Positions 3,017-55,352 of a stretch of 64,000 nt of DNA are shown here, piece after piece. Source of the DNA: Porphyromonas catoniae ATCC 51270 (GTDB lineage: Bacteria > Bacteroidota > Bacteroidia > Bacteroidales > Porphyromonadaceae); contig NZ_JDFF01000011.1 of assembly GCF_000565015.1 (NCBI RefSeq), positions 62,001-126,000 on the forward strand, read 5' to 3'. The notes under the pieces were generated by a model. The model did no database searches, was not told the DNA's origin, and worked only from the letters and a program-made list of their open reading frames with translations. Position 1 is the first letter of the stretch. Every line of letters begins with the position of its first letter. The translations under genes were made by a program, and so were the position numbers.

Positions 3017-3123
3017 GAGTTACCATAACTCTTCGCAACGACTTACTATAACTCGCTGAAACGAGTTACCACAACTCTCCGCAGCGAGTTACCATAAGTC
3101 GTCATAGCGACTTATGGTAACTC
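3017..3123. repeat. Palindromic 23-nt tandem array, family A, copy 1
   Basis: Five 15-nt units start at 3017, 3040, 3063, 3086 and 3109, exactly 23 nt apart, separated by variable 8-nt spacers. The unit is GAGTTA-CCA-TAACTC or a one- to three-base variant. The last unit has the inverted centre TGG and is the exact reverse complement of unit 4, so 3085-3100 can pair with 3108-3123. Imperfect inverted repeats at 2970-2982 and 3158-3170 (10 of 13 matches) bracket the array. Confidence 0.9.
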
Positions 3124-9144: not shown

Positions 9145-9228
9145 TACCTAGAGTGGGACTCGAACCCACACAGCCAAATTGGCCAAGGGATTTTAAGTCC
9201 CTCGTGTCTACCATTCCACCATCTAGGC
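9145..9228 (-). tRNA. tRNA-Leu (anticodon TAA)
   Basis: An 84-nt class II tRNA on the minus strand. It has the acceptor GCCTAGA/TCTAGGT, a D-loop with GGAATGGTAGAC, the anticodon stem-loop AGGGA-CTTAAAA-TCCCT giving TAA, a long variable arm as expected for leucine, and the T-loop GGTTCGAGTCC. CCA is not encoded. It decodes UUA. Confidence 0.95.
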
Positions 9229-9259
9229 GAACCAAGACTTGCGTCATTTAAAGGTGGTG

Positions 9260-9290
9260 CAAAGGTACTCCATTTCCCGATTATTCGCAA
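9260..9290 (-). promoter_or_regulatory. Promoter of tRNA-Leu
   Basis: On the minus strand TTG (9290-9288) is followed after 20 nt by TACCTTTG (9267-9260). This fits the Bacteroidota sigma-ABfr promoter and lies about 30 nt before the mature tRNA. Confidence 0.75.
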
Positions 9291-9394
9291 CCACGAGTAA
9301 CGAACATCAGCGTCCAACCTACGCCATACGAATGCAGATAACAATGGGCTAATCTACCCTGCTGAGTCTGGAGGCTAATCTCAGCAAGGCTTTG

Positions 9395-10393
9395 CTACTT
9401 GTCGCAATCTTGCTCAGCCCTATCGAAGTTAGGTCTTAGGTTACGTATCGTGCGCTGTAGCCCCACGAGTCCTGCTCGCTTGACAGCAGTACCAGCAAAG
9501 AGCGCAAGGTACTCCTCTTCGGTCATTGCCTCCAGCTCCTCGGGCGAGAGTGCCAGCAGCCTCTCCCGAGGCTTATAGTCCTCGACTGTCGTCGGACGTG
9601 CATATCTATTCCACGGACAGCACTGCTGACAGGCATCACAGCCATAGACACGCTTACCGATACTTGCCCTTAGCTCGGTGGGTATCTCCCCTTTCTGCTC
9701 AATCGTGAGGTAACTGATGCATCGCCGAGCATCTATACGACCAGGCGAGAGGAAGGCACTTGTGGGGCAAGCCTTCAGACAACGCTCACAGCGCCCACAC
9801 ATACTACGCATGGGTTCATCACACGGTAGGTCAATATCCACCAGCAGTTCGCCGAGGAAGAAATAGCTCCCTGCACGTGGGATGATTAGCAAACCATTCT
9901 TACCTCGCCAGCCCAAGCCTGCACGCTCCGCCCAGTAGCGTTCCATGATCGGGGCAGAGTCCGAGAAGGCCCTCCCCTCGACCTCCAGCCCCAGCTCTAT
10001 CTGCATATATTTCAGTAGCTGATCCAGACGCTTCTTGACGACCTTATGGTAGTCCCTTCCATAGGCATAGTAAGCGAACTGCGGGGCGTCAGGATGTTGC
10101 TTCTGCTGAGGATAGTAGTTCATTGCCACTACAATCAGGCTACGTGTACCAGGAAGTAGGGCACAGGGGTTGGCACGAAGTGCTCGATTACGTGCCAAGT
10201 ACTCCATATCCCCATGAAAGCCTGCCTCGACCCAGCTATCATACTCTCTAAGGGCATCCTCTGCTACGGGTGCCGCACGAGCTACCCCACAAGCACTAAA
10301 GCCGAGGCGTAGAGCTTCGGCTTTAATACTTGTGACGATCGCACTCTGCGTCTCGTCGTATGGGATGGGATTTAATTGTTGCGAAATACCCAA
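9395..10393 (-). CDS. queG: Epoxyqueuosine reductase
   Basis: Catalyses the last step of queuosine synthesis in tRNA, reducing epoxyqueuosine to queuosine with a cobalamin and two 4Fe-4S clusters. It has 332 residues. The N-terminal half carries the family sequences RLGFSACGVA and YHKVVKKRL and the GWRGKNGLL stretch. The clusters are held by CGRCERCLKACP and CDACQQCCPWNRY. The start at 10393 lies 22 nt inside the end of the upstream HU/SPOR gene, so the pair is probably translationally coupled. A slightly later start cannot be excluded. It depends on cobalamin, which may matter given the B12/haem-type importer elsewhere in the window. Confidence 0.93.
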   Translation of the reverse strand: MGISQQLNPIPYDETQSAIVTSIKAEALRLGFSACGVARAAPVAEDALREYDSWVEAGFHGDMEYLARNRALRANPCALLPGTRSLIVVAMNYYPQQKQHPDAPQFAYYAYGRDYHKVVKKRLDQLLKYMQIELGLEVEGRAFSDSAPIMERYWAERAGLGWRGKNGLLIIPRAGSYFFLGELLVDIDLPCDEPMRSMCGRCERCLKACPTSAFLSPGRIDARRCISYLTIEQKGEIPTELRASIGKRVYGCDACQQCCPWNRYARPTTVEDYKPRERLLALSPEELEAMTEEEYLALFAGTAVKRAGLVGLQRTIRNLRPNFDRAEQDCDK

Positions 10394-11573: not shown

Positions 11574-11680
11574 GAGTTACCATAACTCGTCATCGAGAAT
11601 TACGGTAAGTCGCTACAACGAGTTATGGTAAGTCTCCAAGACGAGTTATGGTAACTCATTGGGATGAGTTATGGTAACCC
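11574..11680. repeat. Palindromic 23-nt tandem array, family A, copy 2
   Basis: Five 15-nt units start at 11574, 11597, 11620, 11643 and 11666, exactly 23 nt apart. Centres run CCA, CGG, TGG, TGG, TGG. Unit 1 (GAGTTACCATAACTC) and unit 4 (GAGTTATGGTAACTC) are exact reverse complements. Imperfect terminal inverted repeats at 11514-11530 and 11713-11729 (12 of 17) bracket the array, giving a 216-bp element. The rest of the 584-bp gap between the HU/SPOR gene and the tRNA holds only the two promoters. Confidence 0.9.
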
Positions 11681-20760: not shown

Positions 20761-20869
20761 GGTATCGAGGGTACCTCAAGACAGGTTACGGGGATACCTC
20801 AAGAGAGGTTACGGGGGTACCTCAAGAGGGTTTCCCTCGATACCTCTCAGGGGGGTATCGAGCTAGTGT
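20761..20869. repeat. Palindromic 23-nt tandem array, family B, copy 1
   Basis: Five units start at 20761, 20784, 20807, 20830 and 20853, exactly 23 nt apart. The 17-nt unit resembles GGTTACGGGGATACCTC, an imperfect palindrome, with 6-nt spacers (aagaca, aagaga, aagagg). Unit 4 has the inverted, C-rich centre. It occupies the middle of the 469-bp divergent gap between susC and the lipoprotein gene at 21044; the remainder of the gap holds one promoter element for each gene. Confidence 0.88.
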
Positions 20870-23843: not shown

Positions 23844-23952
23844 GTTTACCGGGATACCCCTTGGGAGGTATCAGGGGTAACTCCCAGGAGGTTACGGGGT
23901 AAACGATCAGGAGGTTACGAGGGAACCTCTGGAGAGGTTTACAGGAAACCCC
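23844..23952. repeat. Palindromic 23-nt tandem array, family B, copy 2
   Basis: Five units start at 23844, 23867, 23890, 23913 and 23936, exactly 23 nt apart, with GGTTACGGGG-type cores and 6-nt spacers ending in GGA or AGA. It fills about half of the 215-bp gap between der (23999) and the DUF1266-like gene (23783), two genes that read in the same direction. Confidence 0.88.
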
Positions 23953-28559: not shown

Positions 28560-28645
28560 GGTACCGAGGAAACCCCTCACGAGGTATCGCCGTAAACTCC
28601 CGAAAGGTTCCCCCGATACCTCTTCACAGGTTCCCCCGTAACCTC
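28560..28645. repeat. Palindromic 23-nt tandem array, family B, copy 3
   Basis: Four units start at 28560, 28583, 28606 and 28629, exactly 23 nt apart. Most have C-rich centres (GGTTCCCCCGTAACCTC). It lies in the 511-bp gap between the ABC transporter and yceD. The rest of the gap has the yceD promoter, a C- and T-rich stretch (28380-28550) in which I see nothing else, and the ABC operon terminator. Confidence 0.85.
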
Positions 28646-34852: not shown

Positions 34853-34938
34853 GGTATCCCCGTAACCCCTCATGAGGTATCCCCGATACCTTCTCTTAGT
34901 TTCCCTCGATACCTCTAGGGAGTTTCCCCCGATACCTC
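34853..34938. repeat. Palindromic 23-nt tandem array, family B, copy 4
   Basis: Four units start at 34853, 34876, 34899 and 34922, exactly 23 nt apart, with cores such as GGTATCCCCGATACCTT. It is followed two nt later by a separate strong hairpin. It lies between two genes that read leftward. Confidence 0.87.
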
Positions 34939-35001: not shown

Positions 35002-37572
35002 CTACAGATCGAGGGTGGCGGAGAGGTAGAGGCGACGGGGCTGGTTCGGCCCATAGACATAGGCCGAGGCTCGTCCTGGTCCCATATCGGTGTCACGCTG
35101 GAAGGCGTTCAGGAAGTTCTGCACCCCCGCCTCTAACGTCAGCTTCACGAGCGAAGTGAGCTCAAAGGCGTAGCTTGCCCGAAGGTCAAGGTCTACAAAT
35201 GGCTTCGCATTGTAGAGATAGGCGTGCCCGTCGGCTACCCCACGGTAACGAGTGCCGTCCTGCTCAAACTCAAAGTGGCCATCGGGGCGGATCTTACCAG
35301 CAGGTACCCCGAGCTTGTCGAAGCCATCATAGGGCTCATGTGGTACCTTCATCCCACCTGTATAGGTACCCGAGAGGGTAAGGCTTAGGGCACGTGTGGG
35401 GTGAATTGTCCCTGTGAGGTAGCCGTAGACATTGGGGGTACGTTCGTAGTCCTTGGTGGCTATACGCTTCTGACCGGTATTCGCATCCTCGCCGAAGAGT
35501 TCCTTTTCTTCTCCATAGAGGCTACGCTGGAGCGTGAGTCCACCCTGCAGGTCAAAGAGGCGGCGGTAGGCTAGCTTTCCCTCGAGATTGACCCCGTATA
35601 CCTTGCTAGGGGCGCCCTTCATGTTCTGGATTGTGATCACGTGCTTCCCAGTGGAGGGATTGAGGACACCATCCTCACTGTCAGGGGTAAACTTATTCTT
35701 AATGAAGGTAGCAAAGCCCTCGCCCATGACATTGAGTTGCCAGCCACCGAAGGCGGTATACCAGTCTGCAGATAGGCTTAGGCTGCGTGAACGCTCTTCC
35801 TTGAGATCCTTCCCTAGGACACGTTCCTTGGGTTCACCACCTGCCAGCTGTACGTGCATCTCTTCGTCGAAGAATTGTGGAGCACGGAAGCCCTCGCTGT
35901 ACGAGAGACGTAGGCTAAGATCCTTCGTTGGAGAGAAGCGTACATTGGCACGAGGGCTTAGGATAAGCAGGGGATCGATGCTTAGCTTACCCCCCTGCAG
36001 TAGGCGCACATAGTCCAGACGACCACCGAGGAGGACGCTCCAGCGGTCGTTCGTGTACTCGATCTGATCGTACTGGGAGAATGTCCAGGTGACTTGGTCG
36101 ATAGCTTGTGAGCGGTAGCCGCTCTTGTCACGAAGGGTTGCATAGGTACCCTCTGCCCCAGCTGTGAGAGTAAAGGAGCGAGGGAAGTGGTGGATGTAGT
36201 TACCACCCACTTGGGCATCTAGCCCCTTGGTCTCGCCATAGGAGGTGAGGGCCTTTAGGGCTTCGTCGTATGCCTCTTGATACTTGCGTGCTTGCTCCTT
36301 CTCGAGGGGAGTGCCATTGGCGTTTCCTCGGGGAAGGGTCTTCAGTGGATCTAGCAAGTCTCCGGCATAGTCCCCGCCACCATAGTAGCTCTTACGCAGT
36401 ACCTGCTGGGCAGATGCGTAGAGGCTAAACTGATCTTTACCCGAAGCCGTAGCCTGATCAAACCGCAGACTTCCTCCATCGACGAAGTGCTGGAGGTACT
36501 CCGATATACGGGCTTGGAAGGGAGCCTCACTGAGGCGATCTCCCCCACGGCGATACTCGTGCATGGAGCGATATTCCGCTGTGAGCTTGCTGTACATACC
36601 CGTCTTATAATAGGAGCGGAAGCCAAGGGCTCTATTCTTCAGCTCGGGTATATCGGTGAAGCTATCTCCGTCGATGTCTACCATCCCCCTGCGGGAGTGC
36701 TGACCGAAGACCATCGCTGCAGCCCGACGATCCTCTGTGACAAGAGCGCCGTTGAAGCTCGTGGTAGGCATCAGCGAAGTATAGCGGTAATCCGCACCCT
36801 CGTAGCTGGTGTAGCTGTGGCGCAGGCTAGCGGAGTTCCTCAGTGGTTCACGTGTGATCACGTTGATGACCCCTCCGACAGCATTTGCGCCGAAGAGTGC
36901 CGAGCCCCCTCCTCGGATTACCTCCACACGTTCGATCATAGACGAAGGGATCTGCTCCAGACCATATACTCCTGCCAGCGCACTGAATACAGGGCGACTG
37001 TCGATGAGGATCTGCGAATAGGCACCTTCGAGTCCGTTGATACGTACTTGGTTGAACCCACAGTTCTGACAGTTATCCTCTATTCTAAGTCCAGGCTGGA
37101 AGCGCAGGCCTTGGCTCAGGTTATCGGAGTGAGTTTTCTGGAAGATCTCCTGAGAAAGTACCGTAACAAGACTCGGAGCACTCCTACGCATAGTCTCGTG
37201 TCTATTGGCAGAGATGACCACACCGTCTAGGTCGATAGCCTGCTGACGTAGATAGAAGTCATGGTGGCGACTATGTCCCGCTTGTATCGCCACTCCACTT
37301 GACTCCAAGGCATAGCCGAGGAGGCGTGCCTCCAGGATGTACGTCCCAGGACGCAGGTTAGGCAGAATAAAGGCACCGTTAGCATCTGTGGTCGTACCTA
37401 CGGTGGTCCCCTTGATAATGATTTGGACGTAAGGAAGGGCCTCGTGTGTCGAAGCGTCTACGACGGTGCCCACGATACTTCCTGTCGTCTCTGAGTGCTG
37501 AGCGAACGCACCTATCCCTACATATATAAGTAGGCAAAGCGCAAGAGTTGCTCGGAAAAGAATACTCTTCAT
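35002..37572 (-). CDS. TonB-dependent outer-membrane receptor
   Basis: An 856-residue receptor from the ATG at 37572, which gives the signal peptide MKSILFRATLALCLLIYVGIG; the frame extends 29 codons upstream without a signal. A carboxypeptidase-like domain (IVGTVVDASTHEALPYVQI) precedes the plug, which has DNCQNCGFNQVRINGLEG, ILIDSRPVFS and VIRGGGSALFGANAVGGVIN. The paired cysteines in the plug are a feature of one widespread Bacteroidota receptor group. The barrel ends in LYLSATLDL. Ligand is unknown; iron, haem or another metal complex is likely. No SusD partner is adjacent. Confidence 0.92.
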   Translation of the reverse strand: MKSILFRATLALCLLIYVGIGAFAQHSETTGSIVGTVVDASTHEALPYVQIIIKGTTVGTTTDANGAFILPNLRPGTYILEARLLGYALESSGVAIQAGHSRHHDFYLRQQAIDLDGVVISANRHETMRRSAPSLVTVLSQEIFQKTHSDNLSQGLRFQPGLRIEDNCQNCGFNQVRINGLEGAYSQILIDSRPVFSALAGVYGLEQIPSSMIERVEVIRGGGSALFGANAVGGVINVITREPLRNSASLRHSYTSYEGADYRYTSLMPTTSFNGALVTEDRRAAAMVFGQHSRRGMVDIDGDSFTDIPELKNRALGFRSYYKTGMYSKLTAEYRSMHEYRRGGDRLSEAPFQARISEYLQHFVDGGSLRFDQATASGKDQFSLYASAQQVLRKSYYGGGDYAGDLLDPLKTLPRGNANGTPLEKEQARKYQEAYDEALKALTSYGETKGLDAQVGGNYIHHFPRSFTLTAGAEGTYATLRDKSGYRSQAIDQVTWTFSQYDQIEYTNDRWSVLLGGRLDYVRLLQGGKLSIDPLLILSPRANVRFSPTKDLSLRLSYSEGFRAPQFFDEEMHVQLAGGEPKERVLGKDLKEERSRSLSLSADWYTAFGGWQLNVMGEGFATFIKNKFTPDSEDGVLNPSTGKHVITIQNMKGAPSKVYGVNLEGKLAYRRLFDLQGGLTLQRSLYGEEKELFGEDANTGQKRIATKDYERTPNVYGYLTGTIHPTRALSLTLSGTYTGGMKVPHEPYDGFDKLGVPAGKIRPDGHFEFEQDGTRYRGVADGHAYLYNAKPFVDLDLRASYAFELTSLVKLTLEAGVQNFLNAFQRDTDMGPGRASAYVYGPNQPRRLYLSATLDL

Positions 37573-37748
37573 GACATGATGTATTAAATGAATGAACGCT
37601 GAGGAGCCAAGGGCCTCGTCCCCAAGGTGCAGTCCACACCCATAGCTGGCTTGTAGCACAGATATAGGGAGGGATGTATGCGAAGATCGGAAGGTGAAAA
37701 GTCAGAACCTCTCTGGCAAGGTAAGGCTCTCTTTGGCTCTACTAAGCA

Positions 37749-37756: not shown

Positions 37757-38131
37757 AGGAAAGACTACCCTAACTCTGTCTTCCAAGGCTAAAATACCTA
37801 CTTGAGGGGAAGGGCAACACGATCTTTACCAATCCTCTAATACCACCTTTTCTCGACCTTCAATGCTTCCGCCACTGAACTACTAAAACTTCCTTTATTG
37901 AGCCTCTAATAGCTCCGTTACCAGACTCCCAACCCTCTCTCTTCTAGACCAGCAAGACTTCCTTCACTAGATGAGAGACACAGCCATCCTTCACCTATCT
38001 CTGTATCCTTCTTCACCATATACCTTACCCTACCTCACACCTATTACTACCTGAAACATCTGCTTTTTGTAGCCCCCTCCATCCACTCTCTCCCTACCAC
38101 TAGCTTAGCTTTTTCCTATATCCCCCTCAAT

Positions 38132-38217
38132 CACCTATCATAGGTGACAACATCCACCTATCATAGATGAAGACCGCCACCTATGATAGGTGATTGAGAA
38201 GGTTTCCCCGATAACTC
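38132..38217. repeat. Mixed 23-nt array: three family C units and one family B unit
   Basis: Units start at 38132, 38155, 38178 and 38201, exactly 23 nt apart. The first three are the palindrome CACCTATCATAGGTG or variants (CACCTATGATAGGTG has the centre inverted). The fourth, GGTTTCCCCGATAACTC, belongs to family B, yet keeps the register. This is the only array here where two core families join. Confidence 0.88.
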
Positions 38218-38535: not shown

Positions 38536-40782
38536 ATGACACCAAAGAAACTATGGTATGCCCTAGCGACAGTCATTCTATTGTCGTTTGGGGTGCTTGG
38601 CTTCTTCGGAGTGGAAATCTTCCGCACCATGCCCCCCTTCCCCAAGCAGGTGGTGACAACGGAGGGAGAGGTACTCTTCGAGGGTCAAGACATCAAGGAT
38701 GGTCAGAACGTCTGGCAATCCATCGGTGGACAGACTGTAGGTAGCATCTGGGGGCATGGAGCTTACATCGCTCCAGACTGGAACGCTGACTACCTCCACC
38801 GAGAGTCTGTAATCATGCTTCGTAAGCTCGCCGAACAAGACGGGCTAGACTACTCCACCCTCCCCGAGGAAGAGAAGGCAAAGTATCAGGTACTCCTACG
38901 CCAAGAGCTGCGTAAGAACACCTATGACCCCACCACGGGTATCATCACCTACTCTCCTCTACGCGCTGAGGCAGCTCGGGAAGTGGGAGAGCACTACGCC
39001 AAGCTATTCCTCGGCGATGATGCTCCTGAGTATGTGAAGCTCCGCTCCGACTATGCCCTGCGAGGCAAGAGCCTAGAAGACCCAGCAAAGATGGCCAAGA
39101 TGAACGCCTTCTTTGCTTGGACCTCTTGGGTCTGCGTTGCTAGCCGTCCAGGCAGTGATGTCAGCTACACCAACAACTGGCCTCACGACCCTGTCATCGG
39201 TAACGTTGCCCCAACGTCCCTTCATCTCTGGTCAGGCTTCAGCGTACTCATGCTACTGACAGCCGTGGGTATCCTCGTCTACTACTATGCACAAAGTAAG
39301 GAGGACGAAGAGGGTCCCCTGCCTACAGAAGACCCCCTACGTGGCATGAAGCCTACCGCCTCTATGCGTGCTACAATCAAGTACATCTGGATTGTATCGG
39401 CACTGATGCTCGTACAGATGGTGCTGGGGGCAATCACGGCACACTATGGGGTAGAGGGAGATGCTCTCTTCAGCCTGCCTATACAGGACTTCCTACCACA
39501 GGCTGTCTCTCGTAGCTGGCACGTCCAGCTGGCTATCCTCTGGATCGCTACCTCTTGGCTTGCCACGGGTCTGTATATAGCACCTGCCGTATCAGGTACA
39601 GAACCGAAGTATCAAGCCCTCGGGGTGAATGTCCTCTTCGGTGCCCTCATCTTTGTCGTTGTAGGCTCCTTAGTCGGACAGTGGATGGGTGTGATGCAGA
39701 AGCTCGGACTCATCGAGAACTTCTGGCTCGGTCACCAAGGCTATGAGTACGTAGAGCTCGGTCGCATATGGCAGATCCTCCTCTTGGTAGGTCTCGTGCT
39801 CTGGCTCTTCTTGATGATCCGTGCTCTGATACCGGCCCTCAAGCGCAAGGATGAGAACCGTCATCTACTGACCCTCTTCATCATCGCTTCGCTAGCCATT
39901 GCATTCTTCTACGCTGCAGGTCTAATGTATGGTCGCCAGACACACATGGCCATCGCCGAGTACTGGCGCTGGTGGGTAGTGCACCTCTGGGTAGAAGGGT
40001 TCTTCGAGGTATTCGCTACGGTTGTTGCTGCCTTCCTCTTCTGCCGTCTGGGGCTACTACGTATAAAGTCTGCCACAACGTCAGTACTCTTCTCTACCAT
40101 CATCTTCCTAGCAGGTGGTATCCTAGGTACCTTCCACCACCTCTACTTCAGTGCTACACCTACTGGCGTATTGGCTCTTGGAGCTACGTTTAGCGCACTA
40201 GAGATTGTCCCACTCGTACTAATCGGGATGGAAGCCTACCACAACTATAAGCTCTCGAAGGCAACGAAGTGGATTGAGGACTACAAATGGCCTATATACT
40301 GCTTCATTGCTATGTGTTTCTGGAACTTCCTAGGTGCAGGTATCTTTGGCTTTGCGATCAACCCACCGATTGCCCTCTACTATCTGCAGGGTCTCAACAC
40401 AACGGCAGTGCATGGTCACGCCGCACTCTTTGGGGTGTATGGTATCCTAGGTATTGGGCTGATGCTCTTCTGCCTACGTGGTCTCTATCCCGACTACAAG
40501 TGGAATGACAAGCTGATTGGTACGGCCTTCTGGATGATCAACATCGGTCTGTTCCTCATGGTAACCATCAGTGTCCTACCTATCGGTATCCTACAGGCTC
40601 ACGAATCAATCACTAACGCCTATTGGTCAGCACGCTCGGCAGAGTTCCTCCAGCAGGACTTCATGCAGGTGATCCGCTGGATGCGTATGCCAGGTGACCT
40701 ACTGCTCGGGACGGGTGAGCTACTGCTCGTAATCTTCATCTTCGGGCTACACTTCGGGTGGTCTCGCAAGGCTAAGCGATAG
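38536..40782 (+). CDS. norB: Quinol-dependent nitric oxide reductase (single-subunit)
   Basis: Reduces two NO to N2O at the cytoplasmic membrane using quinol, for NO detoxification or respiration. With 748 residues it has the N-terminal extension of qNor (NorZ) type enzymes that replaces NorC. The periplasmic part shows QDIKDGQNVWQSIGG and GSIWGHGAYIAPDW. The haem-copper oxidase core has NVAPTSLHLWSG, RSWHVQLAILWIAT, WRWWVVHLWVEGFFEVF and HGHAALFGVYG, with the histidine ligands of the haems and non-haem iron. About 14 membrane helices are expected. It is a single gene with a very strong terminator. No other denitrification genes are nearby, so detoxification is likely. Confidence 0.95.
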   Translation: MTPKKLWYALATVILLSFGVLGFFGVEIFRTMPPFPKQVVTTEGEVLFEGQDIKDGQNVWQSIGGQTVGSIWGHGAYIAPDWNADYLHRESVIMLRKLAEQDGLDYSTLPEEEKAKYQVLLRQELRKNTYDPTTGIITYSPLRAEAAREVGEHYAKLFLGDDAPEYVKLRSDYALRGKSLEDPAKMAKMNAFFAWTSWVCVASRPGSDVSYTNNWPHDPVIGNVAPTSLHLWSGFSVLMLLTAVGILVYYYAQSKEDEEGPLPTEDPLRGMKPTASMRATIKYIWIVSALMLVQMVLGAITAHYGVEGDALFSLPIQDFLPQAVSRSWHVQLAILWIATSWLATGLYIAPAVSGTEPKYQALGVNVLFGALIFVVVGSLVGQWMGVMQKLGLIENFWLGHQGYEYVELGRIWQILLLVGLVLWLFLMIRALIPALKRKDENRHLLTLFIIASLAIAFFYAAGLMYGRQTHMAIAEYWRWWVVHLWVEGFFEVFATVVAAFLFCRLGLLRIKSATTSVLFSTIIFLAGGILGTFHHLYFSATPTGVLALGATFSALEIVPLVLIGMEAYHNYKLSKATKWIEDYKWPIYCFIAMCFWNFLGAGIFGFAINPPIALYYLQGLNTTAVHGHAALFGVYGILGIGLMLFCLRGLYPDYKWNDKLIGTAFWMINIGLFLMVTISVLPIGILQAHESITNAYWSARSAEFLQQDFMQVIRWMRMPGDLLLGTGELLLVIFIFGLHFGWSRKAKR

Positions 40783-55245: not shown

Positions 55246-55352
55246 GAGTTACCACAACTCGCTGAAACAAGTTACCATAACTCGTCTCAGAGACTTACCA
55301 TAACTCGTCGGAGCGAGTTACCATAACTTATTCTGACGACTTATGGCAACTC
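55246..55352. repeat. Palindromic 23-nt tandem array, family A, copy 3
   Basis: Five 15-nt units start at 55246, 55269, 55292, 55315 and 55338, exactly 23 nt apart. Centres are CCA four times, then TGG, the same order as copy 1. The sequence GTATA occurs 24 nt after the last unit, as in copy 1. No terminal inverted repeat like those of copies 1 and 2 is seen. Confidence 0.9.

Follow-up and report, generated by a model that had tools for sequence, protein, structure and literature searches.

Among described systems, one of the closest to the arrays reported here is BrickBuilt of P. gingivalis, a MITE/minisatellite of 23-nt tandem units with no spacer regions between the repeats. It holds a single unit family, carries 1-23 units depending on locus and strain, and has a leader and a tail with 12-nt terminal inverted repeats (TIRs) (PMC4596501). 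The same source mentions 22-nt and 23-nt direct repeats in P. gingivalis W83 without locations or analysis. BOX elements of Streptococcus have the composition boxA-(boxB)n-boxC, and in S. suis one inner module is combined with differing end modules; the inner copy number is variable, the modules are larger than those described below, IS-like TIRs have been proposed, and copies are over-represented between convergent genes (PMC3049150). REPINs are tied to the RAYT (Y1) transposase (PMC3116915).

The locus under study occupies positions 38132-38217 of a 64,000-nt stretch of the Porphyromonas catoniae genome (hereafter the window). Two palindrome families meet there: A, with type sequence CACCTATNATAGGTG, and B, with type sequence GGTTTCCCCGATAAC and consensus GGTWWCSBSGWWACC. 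As the original prediction had described, three A units and one B unit with unrelated cores are present, exactly in phase, and each step between dyad centres is 23 nt (Table 1). The fourth unit had been assigned to a family seen at 20.8, 23.8, 28.6 and 34.9 kb, and a chain search bore this out by recovering 4-5 GGTWWCSBSGWWACC units at each of these places. Its score of 14/15 is reached by only 0.017% of window positions, and a 17-mer that starts with it extends to 38217. To the left, the slot in which a B unit sits in other A trios holds a decayed copy, which explains why only one B had been seen.

The gap that contains the array measures 0.9 kb and separates divergent genes for a TonB-dependent receptor and NorB; norB begins 321 nt downstream of the array, in agreement with the predicted position upstream of a nitric oxide reductase gene. 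Within the collection of named genomes, the closest protein to this NorB comes from Porphyromonas pasteri (90%). In another genome of the genus, G015, a rearranged palindrome array is found ~320-430 nt upstream of norB (L012, about 1070-1180). It belongs to another family and faces another divergent neighbour, and the coincidence may be due to chance, arrays being common.

Table 1. Features of the mixed array, its neighbouring genes and further arrays in the window
Feature	Position	Strand	Basis and remarks
Left B unit, decayed (CTTTTTCCTATATCC)	38109..38123		centre 38116; 9/15 vs B consensus; exactly 46 nt left of middle A
A unit 1 (CACCTATCATAGGTG)	38132..38146		centre 38139
A unit 2, middle (CACCTATCATAGATG)	38155..38169		centre 38162; one mismatch
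A unit 3 (CACCTATGATAGGTG)	38178..38192		centre 38185; centre letter complements that of unit 1
Right B unit (GGTTTCCCCGATAAC)	38201..38215		centre 38208; 14/15 vs GGTWWCSBSGWWACC
Outer stem (predicted), inverted repeat TCAATCACCTAT...ATAGGTGATTGA around A trio	38127..38197		inverted-repeat and folding analysis
Quinol-type nitric oxide reductase (norB/qNor)	38536..40782	+	PF22085, PF00115
TonB-dependent receptor, divergent neighbour on the other side of the array	35002..37659	-	PF00593, PF07715
B array, 4 units	20761..20844		chain search
B array, 5 units	23844..23950		chain search
B array, 4 units	28560..28643		chain search
B array, 4 units	34853..34936		chain search
C array, 5 units (GASTTAYNRTAASTC)	3017..3123		chain search
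C array, 5 units (GASTTAYNRTAASTC family)	11574..11680		chain search
C array, 5 units (GASTTAYNRTAASTC family)	55246..55352		chain search

A recurrent B-A-A-A-B element

A search for further mixed arrays in this genome had been proposed as a check, and such arrays were found. A pattern search combined with BLAST across the whole 2.04-Mb assembly (25 contigs) identified 15 A loci, 14 trios and one duo. When the loci were aligned on the middle unit, B-like sequence in register was seen on both sides, and all 15 are embedded in B-like units. The B consensus was then scored at every offset from -200 to +200 relative to the middle A of the 14 trios. Scores peaked exactly at -46 and +46 (means of 11.07 and 10.93 of 15, against a background of 5.76; z = 10.7 and 10.5), with no other offset as high and weaker B signals at +/-92. 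Since B stands at exactly +/-46 on both sides of the trios, the recurrent element is B-A-A-A-B. It is present in ~15 copies, and the array upstream of norB is one of these rather than a one-off splice. In the two-unit copy (contig C9) the left B is in phase (13/15) and the right B is poor (8/15); one module has either been lost there or not yet gained. If the focal locus is viewed by itself, where just the right B unit convinces, an A trio might be thought to have aligned by chance with one unrelated B-like sequence, but 14 trios flanked on both sides, with z above 10 at exactly +/-46, refute this within the genome and leave it a negligible probability. Comparison of the 15 copies, a counterpart inside one genome of the strain comparison named as the refuting test, speaks against a chance fit.

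Sequence features within the A trio point to pairing between its outer units. In 13 of 14 loci the central letter of unit 1 complements that of unit 3, and the combinations C...G and G...C both occur; shuffling the partners gives an expectation of 0.51 (p below 2e-4). Mismatches affect the middle unit in 10/14 loci as compared with 4/28 outer units (p 4e-4), and pairing of unit 1 with unit 3 is predicted on at least one strand in 13/14 loci. Relative to shuffled sequences, predicted folding of the focal locus has z values of -5.8 and -8.0, and that of an array of the C family (see below) -10.8. The covarying centre letters, the relaxed middle unit and the predicted folds are the best evidence for a long-range stem, although the A loci are related copies and few events may underlie the covariation.

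Several asymmetries were observed in the same set of loci. With the contigs taken in their written orientation, which ought to be arbitrary, 15 of 17 mismatches to the A consensus (14 trios) fall in the 3' arm, and in 12 of the 14 trios the minus strand gives the more stable fold. The flanks of A arrays (+/-200 nt) are rich in pyrimidines to the left and in purines to the right (33% vs 60% purine), as if dyad symmetry reached far past the array.

The 23-nt period and the copying of whole arrays

Neighbour distances were counted without presupposing any period. A distance of 23 nt separates adjacent A units in 24/24 cases and adjacent units of the C family (GASTTAYNRTAASTC) in 121/123; in family F of G015 (RACCTACNGTAGGTY, usually four units), 72 distances are 23 nt and 10 are 22 or 24 nt. 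A sequence-blind scan of 462 kb of the genome for at least three consecutive 15-nt dyads, at periods of 12-60, returned 26 arrays at period 23 and a single one at the other periods, leaving out 46 (twice 23). Between arrays, C spacers show 47-51% identity and almost every one is distinct, yet their length is still 8 nt, indicating that spacing is held while sequence drifts. The arrays thus combine invariant spacing with free spacer sequence, as would be expected of protein-binding arrays, and the suggestion that selection acts on the period gains support.

The B and C families were counted in 561 kb of the 2.04 Mb. B arrays mostly have four modules, and exactly five units are present in 27 of the 31 C arrays. 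Within this sample C and B units are unmixed except in one weak two-unit chain. No isolated or scattered A units were found among B units: A forms a contiguous central block, with B only outside it. Likeness between C units is higher for the same position in different arrays (0.741) than for different positions within one array (0.681), which argues that whole elements, not single units, were copied; units within one array are no more alike than units between arrays (0.681 vs 0.693).

These observations bear on the mechanism that was first suggested, in which units are swapped or rewritten individually at their positions and their spacing is copied. The exact common phase of unrelated A and B modules is what such a process would produce, and two other palindromes share one 21-22 nt register in three further genomes (G018, G021 and G013). 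However, scattered mosaics are lacking, A never occurs singly or in mixed order within B arrays, and C units show no excess likeness within an array. Unit-by-unit rewriting is unsupported, and we consider it very improbable.

C units have an asymmetric core, CCA or TGG. Units 2-4 point in the same direction (25/25 for units 2 and 3), and units 1 and 5 are opposite in 20/27 arrays. Site-specific inversion of units 2-4 was considered as a source of the patterns -++++ and ----+ and set aside, as the two are reverse complements of one element; the orientation of the flanks is conserved too weakly to decide on such inversion. The flanks themselves show a weakly conserved GCCCT-AGGGC hairpin on one side and a T-rich TTGTTTT..AGTTGGTT stretch on the other. 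One C array (L142, about 9218-9670) lies inside a 78-nt, 77% inverted repeat located 75-195 nt from either edge, and no other array shows an enclosing repeat of this kind. Further families with a period of 23-24 nt occur in the genome (L145, 17389-17472), among them GGTAAAWTWWTTACC, whose spacers are ACCACC and of which the sample contains five arrays.

Possible explanations: protein sites or a mobile hairpin repeat

The reading that we favour, tentatively and as something short of probable, is that the dyad sites of these dispersed arrays are recognised in register by DNA-binding proteins acting cooperatively; arrays would have spread as wholes and would now be kept in phase by selection. This function is inferred. 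A module consists of a 15-nt dyad and 8 nt of spacer (23 nt in all) and would be a putative dimer site, with sequence-specific proteins occupying neighbouring modules at a distance of about two helical turns. A and B would serve two specificities with one common pitch. Arrays would work from the gene-upstream side, most likely in the local architecture or regulation of flanking promoters. Their genome-wide spread would be past, with phase now under selection and no single-unit swaps. The 23-nt spacing, the diverged spacers, the fixed unit numbers, B at +/-46, and the intergenic and divergent-gap placement speak for protein sites. So does the C unit, whose internal pairing at positions 3/13 and 7/9 is below chance: it is not hairpin-shaped, and avoids self-complementarity as an oriented protein site may and a hairpin should not. 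A long-range hairpin was also considered for the C family and dropped, as its arrays lack mirror covariation.

All arrays examined are intergenic. The median gap with an array measures 616 nt, against 60 nt for gaps without one, and arrays occupy 21/37 divergent, 25/268 codirectional and 3/40 convergent gaps. The position of arrays, 100-600 nt upstream of genes, is distant for an operator. The adjoining genes, which include dnaN, protoporphyrinogen oxidase, topA, clp and TonB receptors, are functionally mixed and form no coherent regulon, which also counts against protein sites. Arrays, though of different families, at first appeared to be conserved upstream of G015 orthologues (8/13 vs 3/43, p 1e-4). 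An in-gap definition raised p to 0.006, and a requirement that each of the two gaps be at least 150 nt long raised it to 1.0; the association disappears under control for gap length, and it was not used as evidence, its loss being a further point against protein sites. Separately, the present genome and G015 show strong conservation of 100 nt located 240-340 nt upstream of orthologous TonB receptors (alignment score 186 vs 26 when shuffled). This stretch is located between array and gene (L133 3450-5846 and L163 5786-8056 upstream) and may represent a leader RNA or a small gene.

Both strands are predicted to fold strongly, which also raises the idea that the arrays are transcribed hairpins acting as terminators or mRNA-stabilising elements. 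This is improbable, as only 3/40 convergent gaps hold an array compared with 21/37 divergent ones, the A trio is not followed by a T-tract, and a terminator scan gave results at chance level. An Rfam search returned tRNAs only, with no match at the arrays.

The main rival to protein sites is a hairpin-forming small repeat, although the two readings are compatible with each other. The array would be the body of a small non-autonomous element of REP/BOX/MITE type, mobile now or formerly, in which the outer A units would form a stem of roughly 20 bp capped by a terminal hairpin of the middle A, and the phase would be copied rather than selected. The apparent mutual pairing of the outer A units (13/14 against 0.51 expected), the relaxed middle unit and the strong predicted RNA folding favour it over protein sites. 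Dispersed copies with positional identity are likewise in its favour, as are the leader and tail flanks of C arrays, which are weakly conserved, and BrickBuilt offers a precedent in the genus for a 23-nt array within a MITE (PMC4596501). On the other side, inverted similarity between the two flanks of A, B, C and F arrays is the same as in shuffled sequences, and TIR-bounded arrays were rejected, none being found in general. PF01797 (Y1 transposase) has no match in the present genome and does match control genomes, and RAYT/REP mobilisation was rejected on this ground; IMG/VR contains no match to the arrays, and a phage origin was likewise rejected. Spacers that have fallen to ~49% identity without change of length imply that spacing was still held long after copying. 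Arrays are depleted between convergent genes, unlike BOX/RUP (PMC3049150), and the covariation may rest on few events. We regard a mobile repeat as possible but doubtful.

Arrays in other Porphyromonas genomes and relation to known systems

Among 26 Porphyromonas genomes the C family is confined to the present one (209 adjacent pairs), and F, with 48 pairs in G015, is found in none of the others. NACYTAYNRTARGTN can serve as a common formula for A, C and F, changes in one arm being matched in the other, and the three families may be of common descent. The A pattern is absent from genome G041, which we take to be P. gingivalis ATCC 33277. Arrays of 4-5 units with a 22-nt period (AATCATTTTCGATTTATATATA type), distinct from BrickBuilt, were observed in P. 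gingivalis (L189 4348; L233 61 and 4602).

A survey of intergenic tandem arrays with periods of 14-60 nt, in samples from 18 genomes, assigned a period of 21-24 nt to about 105 of 113 arrays, and most sampled Porphyromonas genomes carry short intergenic arrays of this kind. The period is not a property of the genome, as 22-nt families occur in both the present genome and G015 and shared families keep their period across species; it goes with the sequence family. A second mixed design is present in G018, G021 (presumably P. asaccharolytica DSM 20707) and G013, with 2-3 CTTCGGAGGAA units between CCACGTGG-type units in a 21-22 nt register, so mixed arrays are not unique to the focal locus or species.

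These arrays might belong to a genus-wide class of dispersed intergenic palindrome arrays, with about two helical turns per module (21-24 nt) and fixed module numbers, in which unrelated families can occupy the centre and the ends of one array (B-AAA-B here; CCACGTGG around CTTCGGAGGAA in other species). We think this rather unlikely. If true, it would call for a common pitch-measuring protein assembly, or a copying machine, indifferent to module sequence. Small dispersed repeats are usually regarded as decaying parasites; here spacing is exact, spacers drift, copies lie mostly upstream of genes, and the centre-and-ends plan returns in other species, built there from unrelated palindromes. The question of what reads a 23-nt pitch can be tested in a genus with important oral bacteria, and several families here, with more elsewhere, provide a large set of natural variants for testing it.

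Short extragenic palindromes in organised clusters and many copies are common to REP/BIME/REPIN systems and the present arrays (PMC3116915); the genome here has no RAYT (Y1_Tnp) gene, and the order is that of a fixed-pitch array. The direct repeats of W83 and the 22-nt arrays of 4-5 units in ATCC 33277 probably belong to one class; dyads, fixed unit number and mixed arrays are not described for the W83 repeats in that source (PMC4596501). BrickBuilt shares with our arrays the genus, 23-nt dyad-symmetric tandem units (the period here being exactly 23), intergenic location, about 20 copies and long predicted stem-loops (PMC4596501). It differs in that the arrays here have a fixed unit number, two stacked families, units unrelated to the P. 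gingivalis repeat ATCCTCTCATATGAGACCATAGT, and flanks (A, B, C and F) in which neither the 12-nt leader/tail TIRs nor MITE-type TIRs were detected. BOX and the present element are both dispersed modular repeats in which ends of one kind surround tandem inner modules of another, as B does at +/-46 of A-A-A at 14 loci. In contrast to BOX, the inner copy number is not variable here (3 in 14/15 loci, 2 in one), the modules keep an exact 23-nt phase, and the element is rare between convergent genes.
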